Assembly (NCBI GenBank): GCA_037355855.1
Contig: CM074759.1
Coordinates: forward strand, 4,154,001 to 4,218,000
Direction: 5' to 3'
Origin: Pseudo-nitzschia pungens
Taxonomy: Eukaryota > Bacillariophyta > Bacillariophyceae > Bacillariales > Bacillariaceae
DNA length: 64,000 nucleotides
The translations under genes and the position numbers were made by a program. Numbering within the stretch: position 1 is the first letter of the stretch; each line of letters starts with the position of its first letter. The notes under the pieces are model-generated. The model was given only the letters and a program-made list of their open reading frames with translations, searched no databases and was not told where the DNA came from. Below are positions 47,436 through 59,239 of this stretch, one piece after another.

Positions 47436-50241
47436 TTAATATCGTGAAAAACGATCATCTTCTCTTCTTCTGTAGGGATTACGAGGATGCGCTTCAGGGC
47501 CAGGTCGAAAAGGATGGTGGTGATCAGGCTCAAAAGAGACACGCCTGCTGTGTTCCCTTTCCATGGGAGAGAGCCTGTGGTGTTCCTCATAGGTGTGATA
47601 GTGATTATCCCCAAAAGAGACACGGTGAGGGCGTTCTTGCTGACGAGAGCGTTCTCGTGGAGCACAAACTCCATACGATGAAGAGGACCACCGAGCTGCT
47701 CCCCTTTCACCAAGAGTGGGGGGTTCCTGAGGGTGTTCCTGAGGGTGTTCCTGAGGGCGTTCTTGTGGAGCATAGAAAGACCGACGAGCTCGAGGAGGAG
47801 GATAGTACTCCTCGTCCTGGTGGTGGTACTCAGCAGTGTGTCGTGGTGTATCATAGTAAGACAAGCGACGCGGGTAGTAATTCTCGTAGTATGATGATTG
47901 CTCATCGCGTTCATGATAGTGTCGGTCGGGAGGATAGGGCATCCGACGCTGATCTTCAAAAGAGAGAGATCGAGGGCAGTAGCAGCCGCGCCGATCCTCA
48001 TACCGATCCTCATGCTGGTGTTGCCAGGATTCCTCGTACCGTTGCTGATTGCGCTCTTGCTGATTCTTGTTCGTAAGCTCAATAAATGGAGGGGGGGCAG
48101 GAGACGATCCTTCTTGCGATTCGGAAAGAGTAATATTGGATGGGATATTACGACTAGTAGCCTTGATTGCTGGTGGTACCTCAAATCTCTGTGTCATCAA
48201 ACCCAGATCTCCAGCCGCTTGTTGAGAAGAACATGAATTCTGGTCGTCCTTGGAGCCATCATTGAACGAACCTAGTGTGTGGATTGTTCCCAGAGGGGAA
48301 TCACTGTAGGGATCTGAAGAATCATTCAAAAATTGATTGCAAGCAGCTTGATCATCTGCATGAGAGAGAAGGCTCTTACTCAAATCTTCAGTCGTAGTAG
48401 AGTTCAATGATGCTGGAGAGGGGGGCTTCTTCAACTCAGCTCGGATTTTTGACGGTGAGCCGTGTTTCACCAGAATCGCCTTATCGAAAGCTTCTTGATT
48501 AGGTTCCATGTAATTCATCGTCGTAGAGATATGTGAATGACCACCAATAGTTTTCAGCACAGCTGCAGTTACACCACCATTTACAGCCTTAGAGATAGCG
48601 CCGCGTCGCTTTCCATGAGCAGTACACTTCTCTGCGTTAGTGTAGCCGCTCCACTTAGCAATAAGCTTCATTTTCTGATTCACACTGTGCTTGCCAATCA
48701 CCTTGCTTGCAAACGCACTCAGTCTCCATGTTTTTCCTTGCTTTTGCCACTCCTGCAAAAACAGAAAGATCGATTAAAAAAAATGTGAGTAAAATCGTTG
48801 TACAGAGGAGAACAAAAAGGGGAAAACTTACTTCAATCTGTGCCTTTGATGCAGGCCTCCGGAAGATGCGATTAGCACCTTCACAGTCGTCGGGGACCCA
48901 AGAAAGGAGTTTCAGTGTAGTTTGGTAGCAGGACATGGGATGGCGATTGAACGGACAGGGGAGAATCTTCTTCTTGTTATTACCATCCTCACGCGTTGGA
49001 TTCCGAAGTGAGAGTGTATTTTGTTTCTGCCCAGTATAATTGTCCTTCAACCGAAAGTAAGGGATATCTTTGAACGCGCCTTTCTCAATTTTACCAAGTT
49101 TGAAGTCTTCTTTTACGAGCTGTGTGGGTTCTTTGCAGCCACGAAGAGCGCATTCAAACAGGAGATTCTCCAGGGCACACCAGACAAAGTGTTCATCATT
49201 GCCAAAAGGATCAAGCGGGTTGTCCGGATCTTTGATGGCCTTCCACCTCTTCTCGAACCACTTCGGATCAAAACAGGCCTTGTTGGGGAGGGTACCATAC
49301 AGACTCCTGTGTTCCAACACAATTTCGCAGTTCCTCTTCCAATATGCTTGGAGTTCACCTTGAGCGTTGAAGTCCTTCTTAAACGAATAAGTAATACCAT
49401 TTTTACTGAAGACAGCGAAAAGGCGTTTGTACATGGTTTCGAGAGTGGACACTTCAAACTGGGCTTCAGCCCAGAGCTTGGGGTCTTTGGATAGATCAAT
49501 GCCTCAATATTCTTTCTTGTAGAGTGTCAACGCGTGAACAATCAAACATTTGTTCAAGACCGACTTCTTCAGTGGACTGATAGGAGCGCGACATTCAACA
49601 TAGAGACGCCGAGTCTTGAGAGCAGGACACTCTGGATCAGGAATGATATCAGCAAGCGATCCCAACTGTGGATGCTTTTCCAATGCTTGGAAGAACTCAA
49701 ACTCGTCTACCAACTTTGCCTTCTCGTAAGCCTTGGTATTGAAGTGAAGACCTGTAATCTCCTCAGTGTTTGTACCAAATGCAACTGGATTCTCAGCAAT
49801 ACCCTTCAGAATTGCCGCCAGGGAGAACACTCCATCCACTACACCACCACCATTCGCGGTGACTTCTGGCAGCTGAAGCTCTTCAACATCAATACCGACT
49901 GCTGCATCTTCAATAAGAGTGGGGGGGGCGTCGTTCGAAGATGGTGTTGTCGTACTTCCCGCGGGCTCAGTAGGAGGAGGAGATAGTGTCGTCCAATCAG
50001 TAGTATTCTGGCGGTGGCATTTCTGTCCCTTTCCAATGGTGATAGGAGGAGAGGTAGCAGGGGGAGGAGCCTTCTTCTTCTTGGTGTAGGGGTTCTTCCG
50101 TATTGGATTGTTCGATGCTGCTGTAGATTGTTGTCTTCTTGTTGATGCTGTAGACACAGAACGACTCCTCGGAGCTGGAGCTGCAGTAGACCGAGTTTGC
50201 CGACCGGTAGTGATGCCATTGCTGCGAGTAGTCCTCACCAT
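47436..50241 (-). pseudogene. Crypton-type tyrosine recombinase gene with one in-frame TGA
   Basis: Exon 1 is 50241-48832, intron 48753-48831 (79 bp, GTAAGT...TTTTTGCAG), exon 2 48752-47436; about 908 residues if the TGA at 49504-49506 were read through. The N-terminus is Ser/Thr/Arg-rich. The catalytic domain shows box I Arg in CALRGCKE, the H-x-x-R box in TAHGKRRGAIS, then GGHSHISTTMNYM with the second His and the Tyr nucleophile. This enzyme would cut and rejoin DNA through a 3'-phosphotyrosine link. The C-terminal 250 residues are disordered and rich in Arg, His, Glu and Tyr. No RT or DDE domain is present. The TGA falls between KKEY and GIDLSKDPKLW, where the frame is otherwise clean, so it is either a fresh nonsense change or an assembly error. 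Confidence 0.75.
48753..48831 (-). other. GT-AG intron in the Crypton recombinase gene
   Basis: 79 bp, donor GTAAGTTTTC, pyrimidine-rich acceptor TTTTTGCAG, phase 0. Both flanking frames continue. Confidence 0.85.
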
Positions 50242-50356
50242 GGTGAATGCTGTAAAAAAATGGTCAGCAGTGAAAAGTGTTGTCGTTGTGAGTAATCGAG
50301 AACCAAAAACGCCACCAGCGCGTCAAAGAAAAGGAGCAAAAAGCACTCCCTCCTCG

Positions 50357-52779: not shown

Positions 52780-53825
52780 TCAGGGGAGCAACACGAGTTC
52801 CCCATCGATGCTCCTTTCTGTTCGACCACCATGATTGGCATGGTATTCTTCAATTGCCGCTTCGCGAGCTGCATTAATGTGGGCTTGGAAGGTTTCGTTG
52901 CTTCCTGGTATCATAAGAGCGTGTGTATGAGTGTGAAAGGACTCAGTTTGGTTGTTACCGGAGCCCTTGTTGTGGTTCTTAGAGAACCGGTTCTTGGGAC
53001 ACTCAGACCAATCGTGGTTGTGACCGGGGATCCGGTAGGGATTGGACTTCTTCTTATTCTGCTTTCCTTTGTGGTTGGAATTATTGCGCTTGCGAGAGTT
53101 GCTGTTGTTGTTCGAGCGCTTCTGCTGTTGTTTGTTGTTGTTCTTGTTGCATTTCTTGTTAGCTTGGCGCTCGTGACAGCTCATGTGGTTCACAATGTGT
53201 TGGACTGTGGTGTCTTCTTGGATTCCACTGTGGATAATGCCATAGCTCTCGATCCATGCAGAGGGAAAGGAATGGAGGAGGATGGTGAGTTTCTCCACTC
53301 TGGAAAGGGGCGCGCTGCTCCCATCTAGCTTCTGGGTGTATTTCATGAGGATGAGGATCCGGTCAGCATGCTCTTTGCATGTGACGGAAGGAGTCTTCCG
53401 GCATTCTGCGCTCCTTAAATAGGTGTGCATGATGTCTCTGGCATCTCTGGTGTTACAGTAGAGCTTGGTGAAGTCAAGGAACGCCTGTTCATATCCTCCA
53501 ATCTCTTCTTGATCATATTGATACTCTTCTGGATCCAGTGGATCCTTTATCATGTCGTTCCACTTGCTCTGAGCATCCGTAGTGAGGCATCGGCTGAAGT
53601 GGGTTAGGTAGATGTCAATTGGAAGTCTTAGGAGCTTGGCGGCATTTCGAAAAGACTCCTCCACAAAGAGCAATTCTTCAAGGCCTCCTGTTTCTGTGAA
53701 AACAGGGGGATCTTCATGCTGTCGGTCTGGTCTTCATCGACATTGTACAGGGTGAAAAGCTTCGGCTTGGTTCGATCAAAAGAGCTCTTGTAGGCAATGG
53801 GGGGGTCTCTGTAGATACCTGCCAT
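52780..53825 (-). pseudogene. gag: element C gag, with a frameshift
   Basis: Starts MAGIYRDPP at 53825. After about 48 residues the coding signal moves to another frame at a C-run near 53700 and continues (LFVEESFRNAAKLL) to TGA at 52780. It has the full capsid part missing from B1. The knuckle reads N-P-Y-R-I-P-G-H-N-H-D-W-S-E-C, with Tyr in place of the first Cys, a loss that would harm zinc binding. Asn/Lys-rich linker. The protease frame follows the stop in phase. Confidence 0.8.
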
Positions 53826-54137: not shown

Positions 54138-55006
54138 GATTGCTGGGTACTGCTGGATACTTGGAAGTATATGGAAGGGACTTGGTGTATATGTGTAGGT
54201 ATATATAAGTTAGAAGGTATTGGTGGATACCTAAGACAACTTGTAGTTAGAGGAAGTAGGTGTCAAGTGTCTTCGGAGAACCTTAAGCTTGTTTGCTTAA
54301 GTATAAAAAATAAAGTTAAAAATAAATAACCGAAGGTATGAAGGACCGAAGGTAGGTATGATGTTGTTGAAGGACAGACCTAAGGTATGAAGGACCGAAG
54401 GTAGGTATGATGTTGTTGAAGGACAGACCTAAGGTATGAAGGACCGAAGGTAGGTATGATGTTGTTGGGTAACGTTTGAAGGTATGGTATGGGTACGTGT
54501 TGAGGTACCGAAGGATTGAGTGGTATGGTAGGTTACCACTGAAGAAATATTCGGATTAAGGTGAGTTAAGAAATATAATCAATTCAAAGAATTGACAATG
54601 GTGGTCGTCATATAATCGACTGTAATTACAGTGTCATATCTCTGGAAACCAGGAAATGACTGAAGATAAAAATGGTGGGTTTGATAATTTGTTGATTTAA
54701 GAATTATGATTGAAATTAACTAAAAGATAAAATAGAATGTTTCTCGTACAATGTCGTGTTGTTTATCTTGATAAAAATCTTGATAAAAGCAAACAGACAT
54801 AGAGAAGCTTTTGGAATGGTCTTAAAGAACCTAAAAGTCATAAAGAACCTGAGTCATGGACATCAGTCATAGAGAACCTTGAGGTTGTAGAAACAGTGTT
54901 TGTTTCTTAATTCATAATTAGATTGTTTCTTGTGTGTCGTAGTTTTGGGAGATAGGACAGGAACATATTAGATTTAATTTTTTTCTAATAATTTTAATTT
55001 TTCCAG
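54138..55006. other. flank of element E with tandem repeat
   Basis: AT-rich DNA, perhaps the leader and 5' LTR of E, which I could not delimit. It holds the 49-bp tandem repeat given separately. No gene seen. Confidence 0.4.
54335..54467. repeat. 49-bp tandem repeat, 2.7 copies
   Basis: GGTATGAAGGACCGAAGG starts units at 54335, 54384 and 54433, exactly 49 bp apart, with no difference seen between units. Confidence 0.95.
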
Positions 55007-55283
55007 CCCAATCATGCGCCAGCTACGAAGGGTGTCAACGGACAGACGGGAGAAGGTAAGTCGACCGCGCTTGCGCGCGCGCAGGCAAAGTTGCAGCAGC
55101 AACAACAGCAGCAAGTTCCTCTCCAGCAAAGCGCTAGGAAGCAGTGAGCTCATAAACTTCACTGAAGACCAAGCGCATTGGACTTCTCCCCCTTCCTTGA
55201 GTGACTAAGTCAGTGAAAGAATAACCATAGACAGGAAAGCGCGCCCTGATCAGGTTGCAGCCAGCTAAGTCTATTTTCGTTCA
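55007..55283 (+). repeat. split direct repeat A1
   Basis: 277 bp, starting CCCAATCATGCGCC. It holds a CGCTTGCGCGCGCGCAGG stretch and a short ATG frame (55014-55055) that ends at a GTAAGT donor. Confidence 0.93.
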
Positions 55284-55309
55284 GCCGCTGTCCCCGCATC
55301 CGCTCCACC

Positions 55310-57694
55310 ATGTCCACTGATCCTTTTGACTTTTCTGTGGCTTTGGGCATCGATCTTCATGCTCCTCCCACTGGGGCGGGGGGCTCTCCCGCCGCCACGG
55401 GATCCCCTTCTATTGCGGGTAAGTCCGGGGGGGGGTTGTTGTTGTTTAGTTTACGTGTTTTAACACTGTCCGATCCCCAACTCTGTTGGGGTCAGGTCGG
55501 TCATAAAGGGCGCTTTTGCGTCTCCACTTCTTGTTCTATTGCCACCCACGCCACTCGCAAGTTCGAGTTCCACTTAGAGCCCAGTTCTCCCAGCAACACC
55601 TATGCCTTTGTCGAAATCAAACCCAACGTTATGTCCTCCACCACCTTCATTCCTATCGAGTACTTGGGATCCTCAACCAATGACCTTCTCTCCCAAAACC
55701 GGTCATTGAACCAGTGGGACGCCATCTTCTCGCAGCTCGCTGCGCGCGGCACGCCATCTAACCCAAGTGAATCTGAAGAACACGCCATTGCTCTCGCCGA
55801 AACCAGCAAACGCCTATCGGAAATCCCCATTAGCCTCTTGGCGCCGCCAGACAAGCGCCAGAAAAAGGCAGCCATCCGCTCTGACGTCGAGCGCTCCCTG
55901 CCCCCCATGGAACCTCTAAGCGCCATCAGTGACCCCAATACAGTCAAGGAAGCCCTTGAGAACCTACACGCGCAAGCTTCCCGTATGCGTTCCGTGCTCA
56001 TCTCGACAGCATCATCGGTACAAGAACTGGACGTCTCAGCCCTAGACTTACGGATCGCGCACCTTAAGTCAGTAGTAGGGGAAAGGGACTTGGAGTCTAA
56101 CCCCTCACCCATTCTACAGGAACTGCAGCAGATTTCTCAAGCACTTGACAAACTTAACAAGAACTCTCTTTCCCGGTCCAACAAAGAAGCCATCGACTCG
56201 ATCCTACTCAAATATGGTCCAAACCTGTCCTCCCTGGGCACTCAAATTGCCGCTGGGTTCAAGCGAACCATCTATCCCCTCCTTCTCTGGTACAAGCAGT
56301 GGATCATAGATGGGAAATTCCAATCCAAACTTAACGACATCGAGTCCAAGGTCACCACAGCAACACTCTCCTCCAGCCTGGACGCCATGTATCTCGAGCA
56401 GGCGTCCCCTAAACCCAAGGAAGTGATAGATCTAGAGGGTTCTTCTTTGCAAGAAAGAGTCGCATCCCTTGAAAAGCAACTCGCCACCCTCAACAATCGC
56501 TCTCTGGGGAAAGAGATCAGGCTCAGGTCACACACTTTCGAAACTGTAGAGGATGTCCAGGCATGGATCACAACCCATGCCTACACGCCGGACAAGGCGT
56601 ATTACCTGTTCGTGGATCCTCATTCATTGCTCTCCTTGGCGCTTAATAAGGTCAAGGACCCAGAGGCAGGAACGGCGTCGGTTTCCAACGCCAAGAAGGC
56701 AGGATATAAAACAGCAGCCGAGGCCCTCATGCGGCAAACCTTTGACTTCGAAATGCCTTTTGTCCTGGATAAGGGTCGGAGAGCCACACTACGGAAGACT
56801 CGGTCCTTCTTCTCGAACTATGTACACACCTGTCCTGAAGGAACAGGAGCCTCCTTCATGAGCGACGGAGGAAGCTCCCTCACCATCTCAGGTTCAGACA
56901 CCAACAAACTTTGGTTTAGACGCTTCTCCATAGGTTGTCATCGGAGAATGGGAGACGTTTGGCTTCCGGATTCTCCGGTGACAAAGGAAATCATGTTAGG
57001 GTGCTTACAGATCCTGGAGAGGGAATGGAACAGAGATTTGGGGAACATGGAAGCTCTCGATAGGTGCGCGACGACAGCGGGAATCCTCATCGCCGGATTT
57101 TTTGGTGGATTGCGGGGAGAAGAAATCAATCGCGTGGACCTGGGAGGAATGCTCAAGTATTGGAAGGAAGCAGTGGAAGCGTCAGGGAACAAGAGACACG
57201 TCCCACTGATACTCTCGGGTTCGTTTAAGCGGGAACGAGGCTTAAAATTCTTTACGCAGCCCCTCTCCCCCACGACAAAGGGAGGAATTAAAATTCAATT
57301 GTGGTTCCAACGCTTGTTGACAGTCCGAACAAAGCAAGGAAGAAAGTCGGGGCCTATGTTCTTAGGAAAGGACTCCAAGAGAAGAGCTTCCATAAGTGAA
57401 ATGGACACCCTCTTTTTATCCTTGTTAAATCGGCTCCACAGGTCCCACCCAAGCCTCTTAGGGGAAGAGCCCGCTCTTGAAGGAAAGTTCAGCACATACA
57501 GATCCCTCCGGCGCGGAGCTACCTCAGAAGCCCAAAACCAAGGGATCCCTGAAAACGTGATCCAGGCCAATAATCGATGGCGCAAGTTCAGCAGAAGTAA
57601 TGGACTTCTTCCCGGGATGTCTATGATGGAAAGATACTCAGACGCCAAGGCTTCAGTTCCCACTTTGGTTCGGTTCTCCCACCACCTGATCTAG
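55310..57694 (+). CDS. tyrosine recombinase of element F
   Basis: 794 codons from ATG 55310 (CACCATG). N-terminal 400 residues: Ser/Pro-rich start, then helical and coiled-coil stretches (210-290, 380-400). The catalytic domain is C-terminal: box I Arg602 in GFFGGLRGEEINRVD, Lys640 in GSFKRERG, the box II region TYRSLRRGATSEA at 729-741, Trp757 in NNRWRKF, and Tyr776 in MERYSD. The usual H of H-x-x-R appears to be Arg731 (R-S-L-R), and Trp757 stands in for the second His, a substitution known in this superfamily. It should recombine the CCC-flanked ends. A possible alternative start uses a 14-codon exon in A1 (55014-55055) spliced to 55496, which is in phase. No RT in the gene or beside it. 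It differs from the Crypton recombinase of D2. Confidence 0.85.
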   Translation: MSTDPFDFSVALGIDLHAPPTGAGGSPAATGSPSIAGKSGGGLLLFSLRVLTLSDPQLCWGQVGHKGRFCVSTSCSIATHATRKFEFHLEPSSPSNTYAFVEIKPNVMSSTTFIPIEYLGSSTNDLLSQNRSLNQWDAIFSQLAARGTPSNPSESEEHAIALAETSKRLSEIPISLLAPPDKRQKKAAIRSDVERSLPPMEPLSAISDPNTVKEALENLHAQASRMRSVLISTASSVQELDVSALDLRIAHLKSVVGERDLESNPSPILQELQQISQALDKLNKNSLSRSNKEAIDSILLKYGPNLSSLGTQIAAGFKRTIYPLLLWYKQWIIDGKFQSKLNDIESKVTTATLSSSLDAMYLEQASPKPKEVIDLEGSSLQERVASLEKQLATLNNRSLGKEIRLRSHTFETVEDVQAWITTHAYTPDKAYYLFVDPHSLLSLALNKVKDPEAGTASVSNAKKAGYKTAAEALMRQTFDFEMPFVLDKGRRATLRKTRSFFSNYVHTCPEGTGASFMSDGGSSLTISGSDTNKLWFRRFSIGCHRRMGDVWLPDSPVTKEIMLGCLQILEREWNRDLGNMEALDRCATTAGILIAGFFGGLRGEEINRVDLGGMLKYWKEAVEASGNKRHVPLILSGSFKRERGLKFFTQPLSPTTKGGIKIQLWFQRLLTVRTKQGRKSGPMFLGKDSKRRASISEMDTLFLSLLNRLHRSHPSLLGEEPALEGKFSTYRSLRRGATSEAQNQGIPENVIQANNRWRKFSRSNGLLPGMSMMERYSDAKASVPTLVRFSHHLI

Positions 57695-57957
57695 GGCCGG
57701 ACAAGATGCTTCGGCTCGTTAGGACTGAAGGGCTCGGGGGGAGGCCTCATTCCCCCCACGACAAGTGCCAACGCTTGTTGGGCGTCTAGGGAGCCCATCC
57801 CAATCCCTAGGTCGATTTCGGCGCTTCTGGGTAATGCGCTTCGATCCAGTTCCCAGCATGGACATCAGTGTCGGTTCAATGTTTATCTTCTGGCGGATTA
57901 ACTCCCACACAGGTGAATGATTCTCCATGACTCCGGAAAATGAAGTGTTCGAGGGGG
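57695..57957 (+). other. 3' flank of the recombinase gene in element F
   Basis: About 260 bp between the stop and repeat B1, with GGGGGGAGGCC-type and G-run sequence at its end (57953-57960). No gene. Confidence 0.5.
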
Positions 57958-58453
57958 GGGACTTATTGTCTAAGATTCTATGGAATCTTTCAGTGTTTTG
58001 CTTTCCTGTCTCTGGGTCATCAGTCACCCAGATTACCAAAAGGTTCTGAAGTTTCCAAGCTTGGCAACTTGGAAACCACAGAGAGTGGATAGGATATGCA
58101 GAATATGCGCCACGAAACTCTATCTTGTTGTTGAGGCTAGTACCCCAATAAAAGATATCCGGTCGGTAGTCTACTCGTGATCTGTATACCCAGGGTCAGA
58201 AGCAGCCTACTGCATGTCGAGAATTCGGCACCACTAGGCAGAGAGACAGAAGAGTTTGCATGCTTCTGGAAACAGAAAACGGTCATTTTATTTAACCCTT
58301 GAAAAGGGGTTAATTCCGTTATCTAAGCCCCTGGGTCATTTCCTACCCCCTTCGTATACTGGGGACATTAAACCCCTTATCACCAATTAACAAATTTATT
58401 TTGAGTCACTCCAAGATCGTCTGACACTCTGCCACTTGGAACATAGTAAACCC
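57958..58453 (+). repeat. split direct repeat B1 of element F
   Basis: 496 bp, from GGGACTTATTGTC to AGTAAACCC; identical by eye to 58744-59239. Contains GAATTCGGCACCA and a TTAACCCTTGAAAAGGGGTT inverted repeat. Confidence 0.93.
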
Positions 58454-58727
58454 AATCATGCGCCAGCTACGAAGGGTGTCAACGGACAGACGGGAGAAGG
58501 TAAGTCGACCGCGCTTGCGCGCGCGCAGGCAAAGTTGCAGCAGCAACAACAGCAGCAAGTTCCTCTCCAGCAAAGCGCTAGGAAGCAGTGAGCTCATAAA
58601 CTTCACTGAAGACCAAGCGCATTGGACTTCTCCCCCTTCCTTGAGTGACTAAGTCAGTGAAAGAATAACCATAGACAGGAAAGCGCGCCCTGATCAGGTT
58701 GCAGCCAGCTAAGTCTATTTTCGTTCA
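58451..58727 (+). repeat. split direct repeat A2 of element F
   Basis: 277 bp, identical by eye to 55007-55283; shares CCC with the end of B1. Confidence 0.93.
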
Positions 58728-58743
58728 CCCACCCACCCATCCC

Positions 58744-59239
58744 GGGACTTATTGTCTAAGATTCTATGGAATCTTTCAGTGTTTTGCTTTCCTGTCTCTG
58801 GGTCATCAGTCACCCAGATTACCAAAAGGTTCTGAAGTTTCCAAGCTTGGCAACTTGGAAACCACAGAGAGTGGATAGGATATGCAGAATATGCGCCACG
58901 AAACTCTATCTTGTTGTTGAGGCTAGTACCCCAATAAAAGATATCCGGTCGGTAGTCTACTCGTGATCTGTATACCCAGGGTCAGAAGCAGCCTACTGCA
59001 TGTCGAGAATTCGGCACCACTAGGCAGAGAGACAGAAGAGTTTGCATGCTTCTGGAAACAGAAAACGGTCATTTTATTTAACCCTTGAAAAGGGGTTAAT
59101 TCCGTTATCTAAGCCCCTGGGTCATTTCCTACCCCCTTCGTATACTGGGGACATTAAACCCCTTATCACCAATTAACAAATTTATTTTGAGTCACTCCAA
59201 GATCGTCTGACACTCTGCCACTTGGAACATAGTAAACCC
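58744..59239 (+). repeat. split direct repeat B2 of element F
   Basis: 496 bp; right end of the element at CCC. A 16-bp spacer CCCACCCACCCATCCC parts it from A2. Confidence 0.93.

Follow-up and report, generated by a model that had tools for sequence, protein, structure and literature searches.

The window analysed here, a 64,000-nucleotide stretch of the Pseudo-nitzschia pungens genome (C2:4154001-4218000), carries at positions 55007-59239 an element with split direct repeats, a tyrosine recombinase (YR) reading frame and no reverse transcriptase (RT). This element is almost certainly a young copy, internally deleted and presumably non-autonomous, from a family of YR retrotransposons with split direct repeats (order DIRS, with repeats of the Ngaro/PAT/VIPER type). 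Its RT-less appearance is due to a deletion and is not the mark of a new class; as a phenomenon, it is ordinary. A previous interpretation made from the letters of the window alone (the sequence-only reading) had proposed either a non-autonomous derivative of such a retrotransposon or a class of its own, mobile as a DNA circle, and the first proposal is borne out by full-length relatives in the same genome that have the same repeats together with RT and ribonuclease H (RNase H). Because both enzymes are absent from the window copy, it is filed as a derivative and not as a full member of the split-repeat YR retrotransposons. Its features are listed below, in window coordinates; the deletion and the YR residues are described relative to the full-length copy L009, whose third open reading frame (ORF) encodes the YR.

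55007..55283, + strand: A1 repeat, the left terminus, with AATCATG preceded by a target-derived CCC
55310..57694, + strand: chimeric ORF of 794 codons, Gag-position residues 1-491 joined to YR residues 216-517
56782..56788, + strand: deletion junction, 4849 bp gone relative to L009, not GT-AG, with a 2-nt filler or 1 substitution
56786..57694, + strand: catalytic part of the YR, with R325, K363, R454 (His replaced), R457, W480 and Y499 in L009 ORF3 numbering
57958..58453, + strand: B1 repeat, identical to B2
58451..58727, + strand: A2 repeat, its first CCC shared with the last CCC of B1
58728..58743, + strand: C-rich spacer of 16 bp between A2 and B2
58744..59239, + strand: B2 repeat, the right terminus, ending in AAA|CCC

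The arrangement A1-gene-B1A2-B2 with identical repeats, as given in the sequence-only reading, was reproduced in both coordinates and identity. A1 and A2 match at 277/277 bp and diverge from positions 55284 and 58728 onwards, B1 and B2 match at 496/496 bp, and the terminal CCC of B1 doubles as the opening CCC of A2. Identity over such lengths is far beyond chance. The frame between A1 and B1 is open throughout its 794 codons.

The genome (66.9 Mb in 28 contigs) was searched for relatives using window positions 55500-57800 as the query, and the two halves of the query were found several kilobases apart in these relatives. Both matches stop at window position 56786 in five copies (L009, L010, L011+L012, L013 and L014+L015), and in the more divergent L016 the match breaks at 56781 and 56786. 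The sequence inserted with respect to the window is 4848-4853 bp long in the four copies for which it was determined (L009, L010, L013 and L016); L011+L012 and L014+L015 carry additional inserts of ~2-3 kb. Another 10 copies are delimited by these A and B ends, as a genome check suggested in the sequence-only reading was meant to reveal, so that 11 copies in all start with A and finish with B: the window copy, L009, L010, L011+L012, L013, L014+L015, L016, L017, L018, L019 and L020. Excluded from this count were the fragment L021, an old relative at C3:4549292-4554496 (stops present, YR identity ~50%), the duplicated fragments L067/L068, short relics made of A plus a B end, other partial B matches and further divergent A matches, which come from 40/51 candidates scored. 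An RT frame, whole or partial, is present in 7/11 copies (L009, L010, L011/L012, L013, L014/L015, L016 and L017) and absent from the window copy, L018, L019 and L020; it contains a single TGA in each of L010, L011/L012 and L014/L015, is interrupted in L014/L015 and has no start in L017. The gene order of L009 is ORF1 (676 codons), ORF2 (1254 codons) and ORF3 (517 codons), the last two lengths being provisional, as they are counted from non-ATG starts. The full-length form is A1 - ORF1 (Gag position) - ORF2 (RT, RNase H) - ORF3 (YR) - B1A2B2. Such a longer relative with RT had been named in advance as the finding that would reduce the window element to a deletion copy, and it was found. Most copies are 99-100% identical to one another, and the window copy is young.

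The window copy corresponds to L009 with 4849 bp removed; its ends and repeats are complete, and it occupies another chromosomal site. Upstream of the junction 1494/1494 bases match L009, downstream 1163/1163, and the only differences across the element are position 55008 (a target base), position 56784 (the junction base) and one G in a G-run. The junction reads GGTCGGAGAG-CC-ACACTACGG, and L009 has GGTCGGAGAGACAACTT at the left site and CAATTTGAGACACTACGG at the right site. The net loss of 4849 bp covers RT/RNase H, the end of the Gag-position ORF and the start of the YR, and it causes ORF1 and ORF3 to fall into a single frame, which keeps 491/676 Gag-position residues and, of the 517 residues encoded by the recombinase ORF, only 216-517. 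The 794-codon frame is two truncated genes joined by the deletion. Its description as one intact gene was correct as to the open frame and too strong as to the gene; the statement that the element had kept only the recombinase is imprecise, since most of the Gag-position residues persist and the YR itself is incomplete.

Template switching during reverse transcription, or error-prone repair, at the short match GAG/GAGACA may have made the deletion, and two filler bases or one substitution would have been left at the join; the YR would have joined the circle, or a circle precursor, to a CCC-type target. A different origin for the same join would be the reverse transcription of a spliced (subgenomic) RNA, with the 4849 bp as an intron of a Gag-YR messenger, and the AG on the 3' side immediately ahead of ACACTACGG and the single frame produced by the join are consistent with it. 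However, the 5' side, GGAGAGACAACT, has neither a GT nor an AT donor, and the lack of a GT donor makes splicing unlikely; the join also contains bases that the parent does not have, and it was found in no other copy. The spliced-RNA origin, rejected on the missing GT donor and the extra bases, is thus very improbable.

When the genome was searched for the junction with up to 3 mismatches allowed, no second occurrence was found. A database search with the entire 794-residue protein, in which 8000 candidates were scored, yielded 54 matches, each covering no more than 62% of the protein; 0/54 spanned both halves, 3 matching the first part only and 51 the second part only. A distinct RT-less split-repeat class, coding for a Gag-YR protein and mobile as a DNA circle, would fit the open 794-codon frame and the exact, identical repeats. 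But the junction occupies 1 genomic place, no database match covers both halves, an identical RT-bearing relative exists, and the YR is missing over half of what is likely its core-binding domain; such a class is exceedingly improbable, and the question is closed. The point about the core-binding domain comes from a structure model of ORF3, in which five longer helices (residues 129-146, 151-170, 189-201, 214-225 and 257-270) lie ahead of the catalytic part. The window retains residue 216 onwards, so that the first three of these helices are gone. The core-binding domain of Cre has five helices, and by comparison with this count more than half of the likely domain would have been lost. We infer that the fused Gag-YR protein is probably not a working recombinase; with its likely core-binding domain truncated, any further movement of the window copy would need proteins from full-length copies.

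Several points weigh against the internal-deletion reading. The reading frame continues through the junction, an outcome that a random deletion would give at best ~1/3 of the time. The junction is single-copy, so that any movement of the already deleted element would be hypothetical; the window copy may have lost its middle when it was already inserted at this site. In the family as a whole deletions may precede or follow insertion, as no deleted form was found twice at unrelated sites. Confidence in the YR model is middling (mean predicted local distance difference test score, pLDDT, 70.6), with pLDDT <50 at residues 207-213 and 227-249, which adjoin the junction. In addition, the evidence for the locus comes from the assembly. 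A full-length copy might stand here in reality and have been collapsed during assembly, and the 99-100% identity of most copies is a setting in which assemblers are prone to such errors; however, the flanks of the window copy differ from those of the 10 other copies, the join has bases that the parent lacks, and four other copies are deleted differently, which leaves an assembly artefact highly improbable.

Internal deletions, all differing, were found in L017, L018, L019 and L020, that of L018 at a 3-bp ACA match. The diverged relics L051, L052, L069 and L070 consist of A (~73-86% identical) and the last 25-55 bp of B, with some ORF1-like sequence retained in L070; these relics are older and resemble mini-elements of the SIRE/TRIM type. 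The varied deletions and the relics together indicate that loss of the middle with the ends kept recurs in this lineage. An A-plus-ORF1 derivative present at two places on C5 was considered as an amplified form and rejected, as the two places are one segmental duplication (98% over ~2.5 kb including flanks).

The right joint reads AAA|CCC in 11/11 copies and is followed by a copy-specific flank, and the base ahead of AATCATG on the left is C in 11/11 copies. The other two positions of the left triplet, read by eye in the 11 copies, vary: the middle base is C in 9 and T in 2, and the first is C in 7, A in 3 and G in 1. This pattern is what would be expected if a B|CCC|A site recombined with a C-rich target and left no target duplication behind. 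A search of the one genome for an empty site, using the joined 36-nt flank pattern with up to 3 mismatches, found none elsewhere. Following B1, one A-B unit is present in 6/11 copies (the window copy included), five in L010 and zero in 4/11, namely L013, L014/L015, L018 and L020, which end after B1 without A2-B2. The L010 array (C12:1236364-1240789) lies behind a full-length copy, has a spacing of 786 bp and contains five compared B-to-A units that are mutually identical. The YR of this family, with its His-to-Arg replacement, might recombine two B|A junctions of a circular intermediate and thereby free 786-bp A-B mini-circles, the window copy being a substrate moved in trans by full-length copies. 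Mini-circle release would account for copies with 0, 1 or 5 A-B units and for the identity of the array units; unequal homologous recombination between A-B units explains the same unit numbers, and we regard the mini-circle proposal as rather doubtful.

The family encodes a tyrosine recombinase. In an alignment of 121 ORF3 sequences (L009 and the best 120 of 213 database matches), R325 and K363 are invariant (121/121), and R457, W480 and Y499 are kept in 114, 118 and 117 sequences, respectively. The column of the catalytic His of H-x-x-R (L009 ORF3 residue 454) holds Arg in 118/121 sequences, the exceptions being two with Gln and one with Ile; that this column corresponds to His289 of Cre is suggested by the spacing of the motifs and by the ranges covered in the fold alignment. 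RT motifs (D607/D609 and Y/F-x-D726-D727) and RNase H motifs (D942, D1009 and D1061) are present in ORF2, and both enzymes are also backed by a fold match. Named relatives of ORF2 come from Fragilariopsis cylindrus and Fragilaria crotonensis, and further ones are labelled Psemu1, presumably Pseudo-nitzschia multiseries; these relatives point to a diatom as the probable host. The full-length proteins were missed by the Pfam models for RT, RNase H and integrase, the family being too divergent for those of RT and integrase. No relevant Pfam or NCBIfam match was obtained for ORF1, ORF2, ORF3, the window ORF or the aligned relatives; this covers the profile search recommended for the 794-residue protein. 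There were weak matches to the unrelated families Dynactin_p22 (0.02-0.04) and FcmC (0.14-0.22), and one of 22 YR relatives matched DUF5981 (6.5e-4) and one BLF1 (0.029), both considered irrelevant. A sequence search of PDB returned just conglutin (E 0.48-0.72). When the RT and YR alignments were compared, profile against profile, with RTs of long terminal repeat elements and Crypton-like YRs from the same genome, the probability was <1%, a result that is uninformative because the templates are shallow. Pattern searches of viral contigs gave 7 and 30 matches, of which 0 were confirmed as relatives.

The split-repeat pattern is described as common to Ngaro-, PAT- and VIPER-like elements (PMC6681497, PMC4157794). 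Ngaro elements of Cafeteria, zebrafish and fungi have the same A1-[ORFs]-B1A2B2 order, and the full-length relatives here share with them the succession of Gag-position ORF, RT/RNase H and YR, whereas the window copy has no RT or RNase H. Deletion variants of Ngaro are known, such as type 2b without ORF1 (PMC8547959). Cafeteria Ngaro YRs are described there with His-X-X-Arg, in contrast to the Arg of the family here (118/121). The likeness to PAT and VIPER lies in the split-repeat pattern. Lack of a methyltransferase sets Ngaro proper apart from DIRS and PAT. PAT elements encode a putative methyltransferase (PMC4157794); none was detected here by Pfam, a weak test, as the same Pfam search also missed RT and YR. 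VIPER is described from kinetoplastids, and the non-autonomous SIRE of Trypanosoma cruzi corresponds to the A2-B2 region of VIPER (PMC6681497). The variable number of A-B units and the short relics of A plus a B end recall SIRE, but A-B units were seen here only as parts of longer copies or in the form of a few old relics, and the window copy keeps ~2.7 kb of internal sequence. Cryptons are YR-encoding mobile elements with a diatom example on record (PMC3212892); they are DNA transposons that have neither RT nor long direct repeats, whereas the family here has both, and Crypton identity was ruled out by the RT frame in 7/11 copies. DIRS/Ngaro-like elements have been reported in the brown alga Ectocarpus (PMC3145265). 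Among the matches listed, judged by title and the start of the abstract and covering mostly non-subscription literature, no paper dealt with diatom YR retrotransposons. The family to which the window copy belongs is moderately interesting: its near-identical young copies, clean integration joints and natural series of A-B units make the circular-intermediate model testable in a culturable alga, given a diatom host.

Elsewhere in the window, three tandem 49-bp repeats lie to the left of the insertion (54329-54475), and a 297-codon frame at 52780-53673 (-) resembles, by eye, part of a copia-type Gag from a different retroelement. At 47439-50322 (-) lies a second locus that encodes a YR and is probably Crypton-like, with exons spread over three frames. 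Read as one frame, it matches Pfam Phage_integrase with E 8e-6, slightly under the cut-off, and it lies above the cut-off in the genome search, in which 10 Phage_integrase matches of this kind were found.
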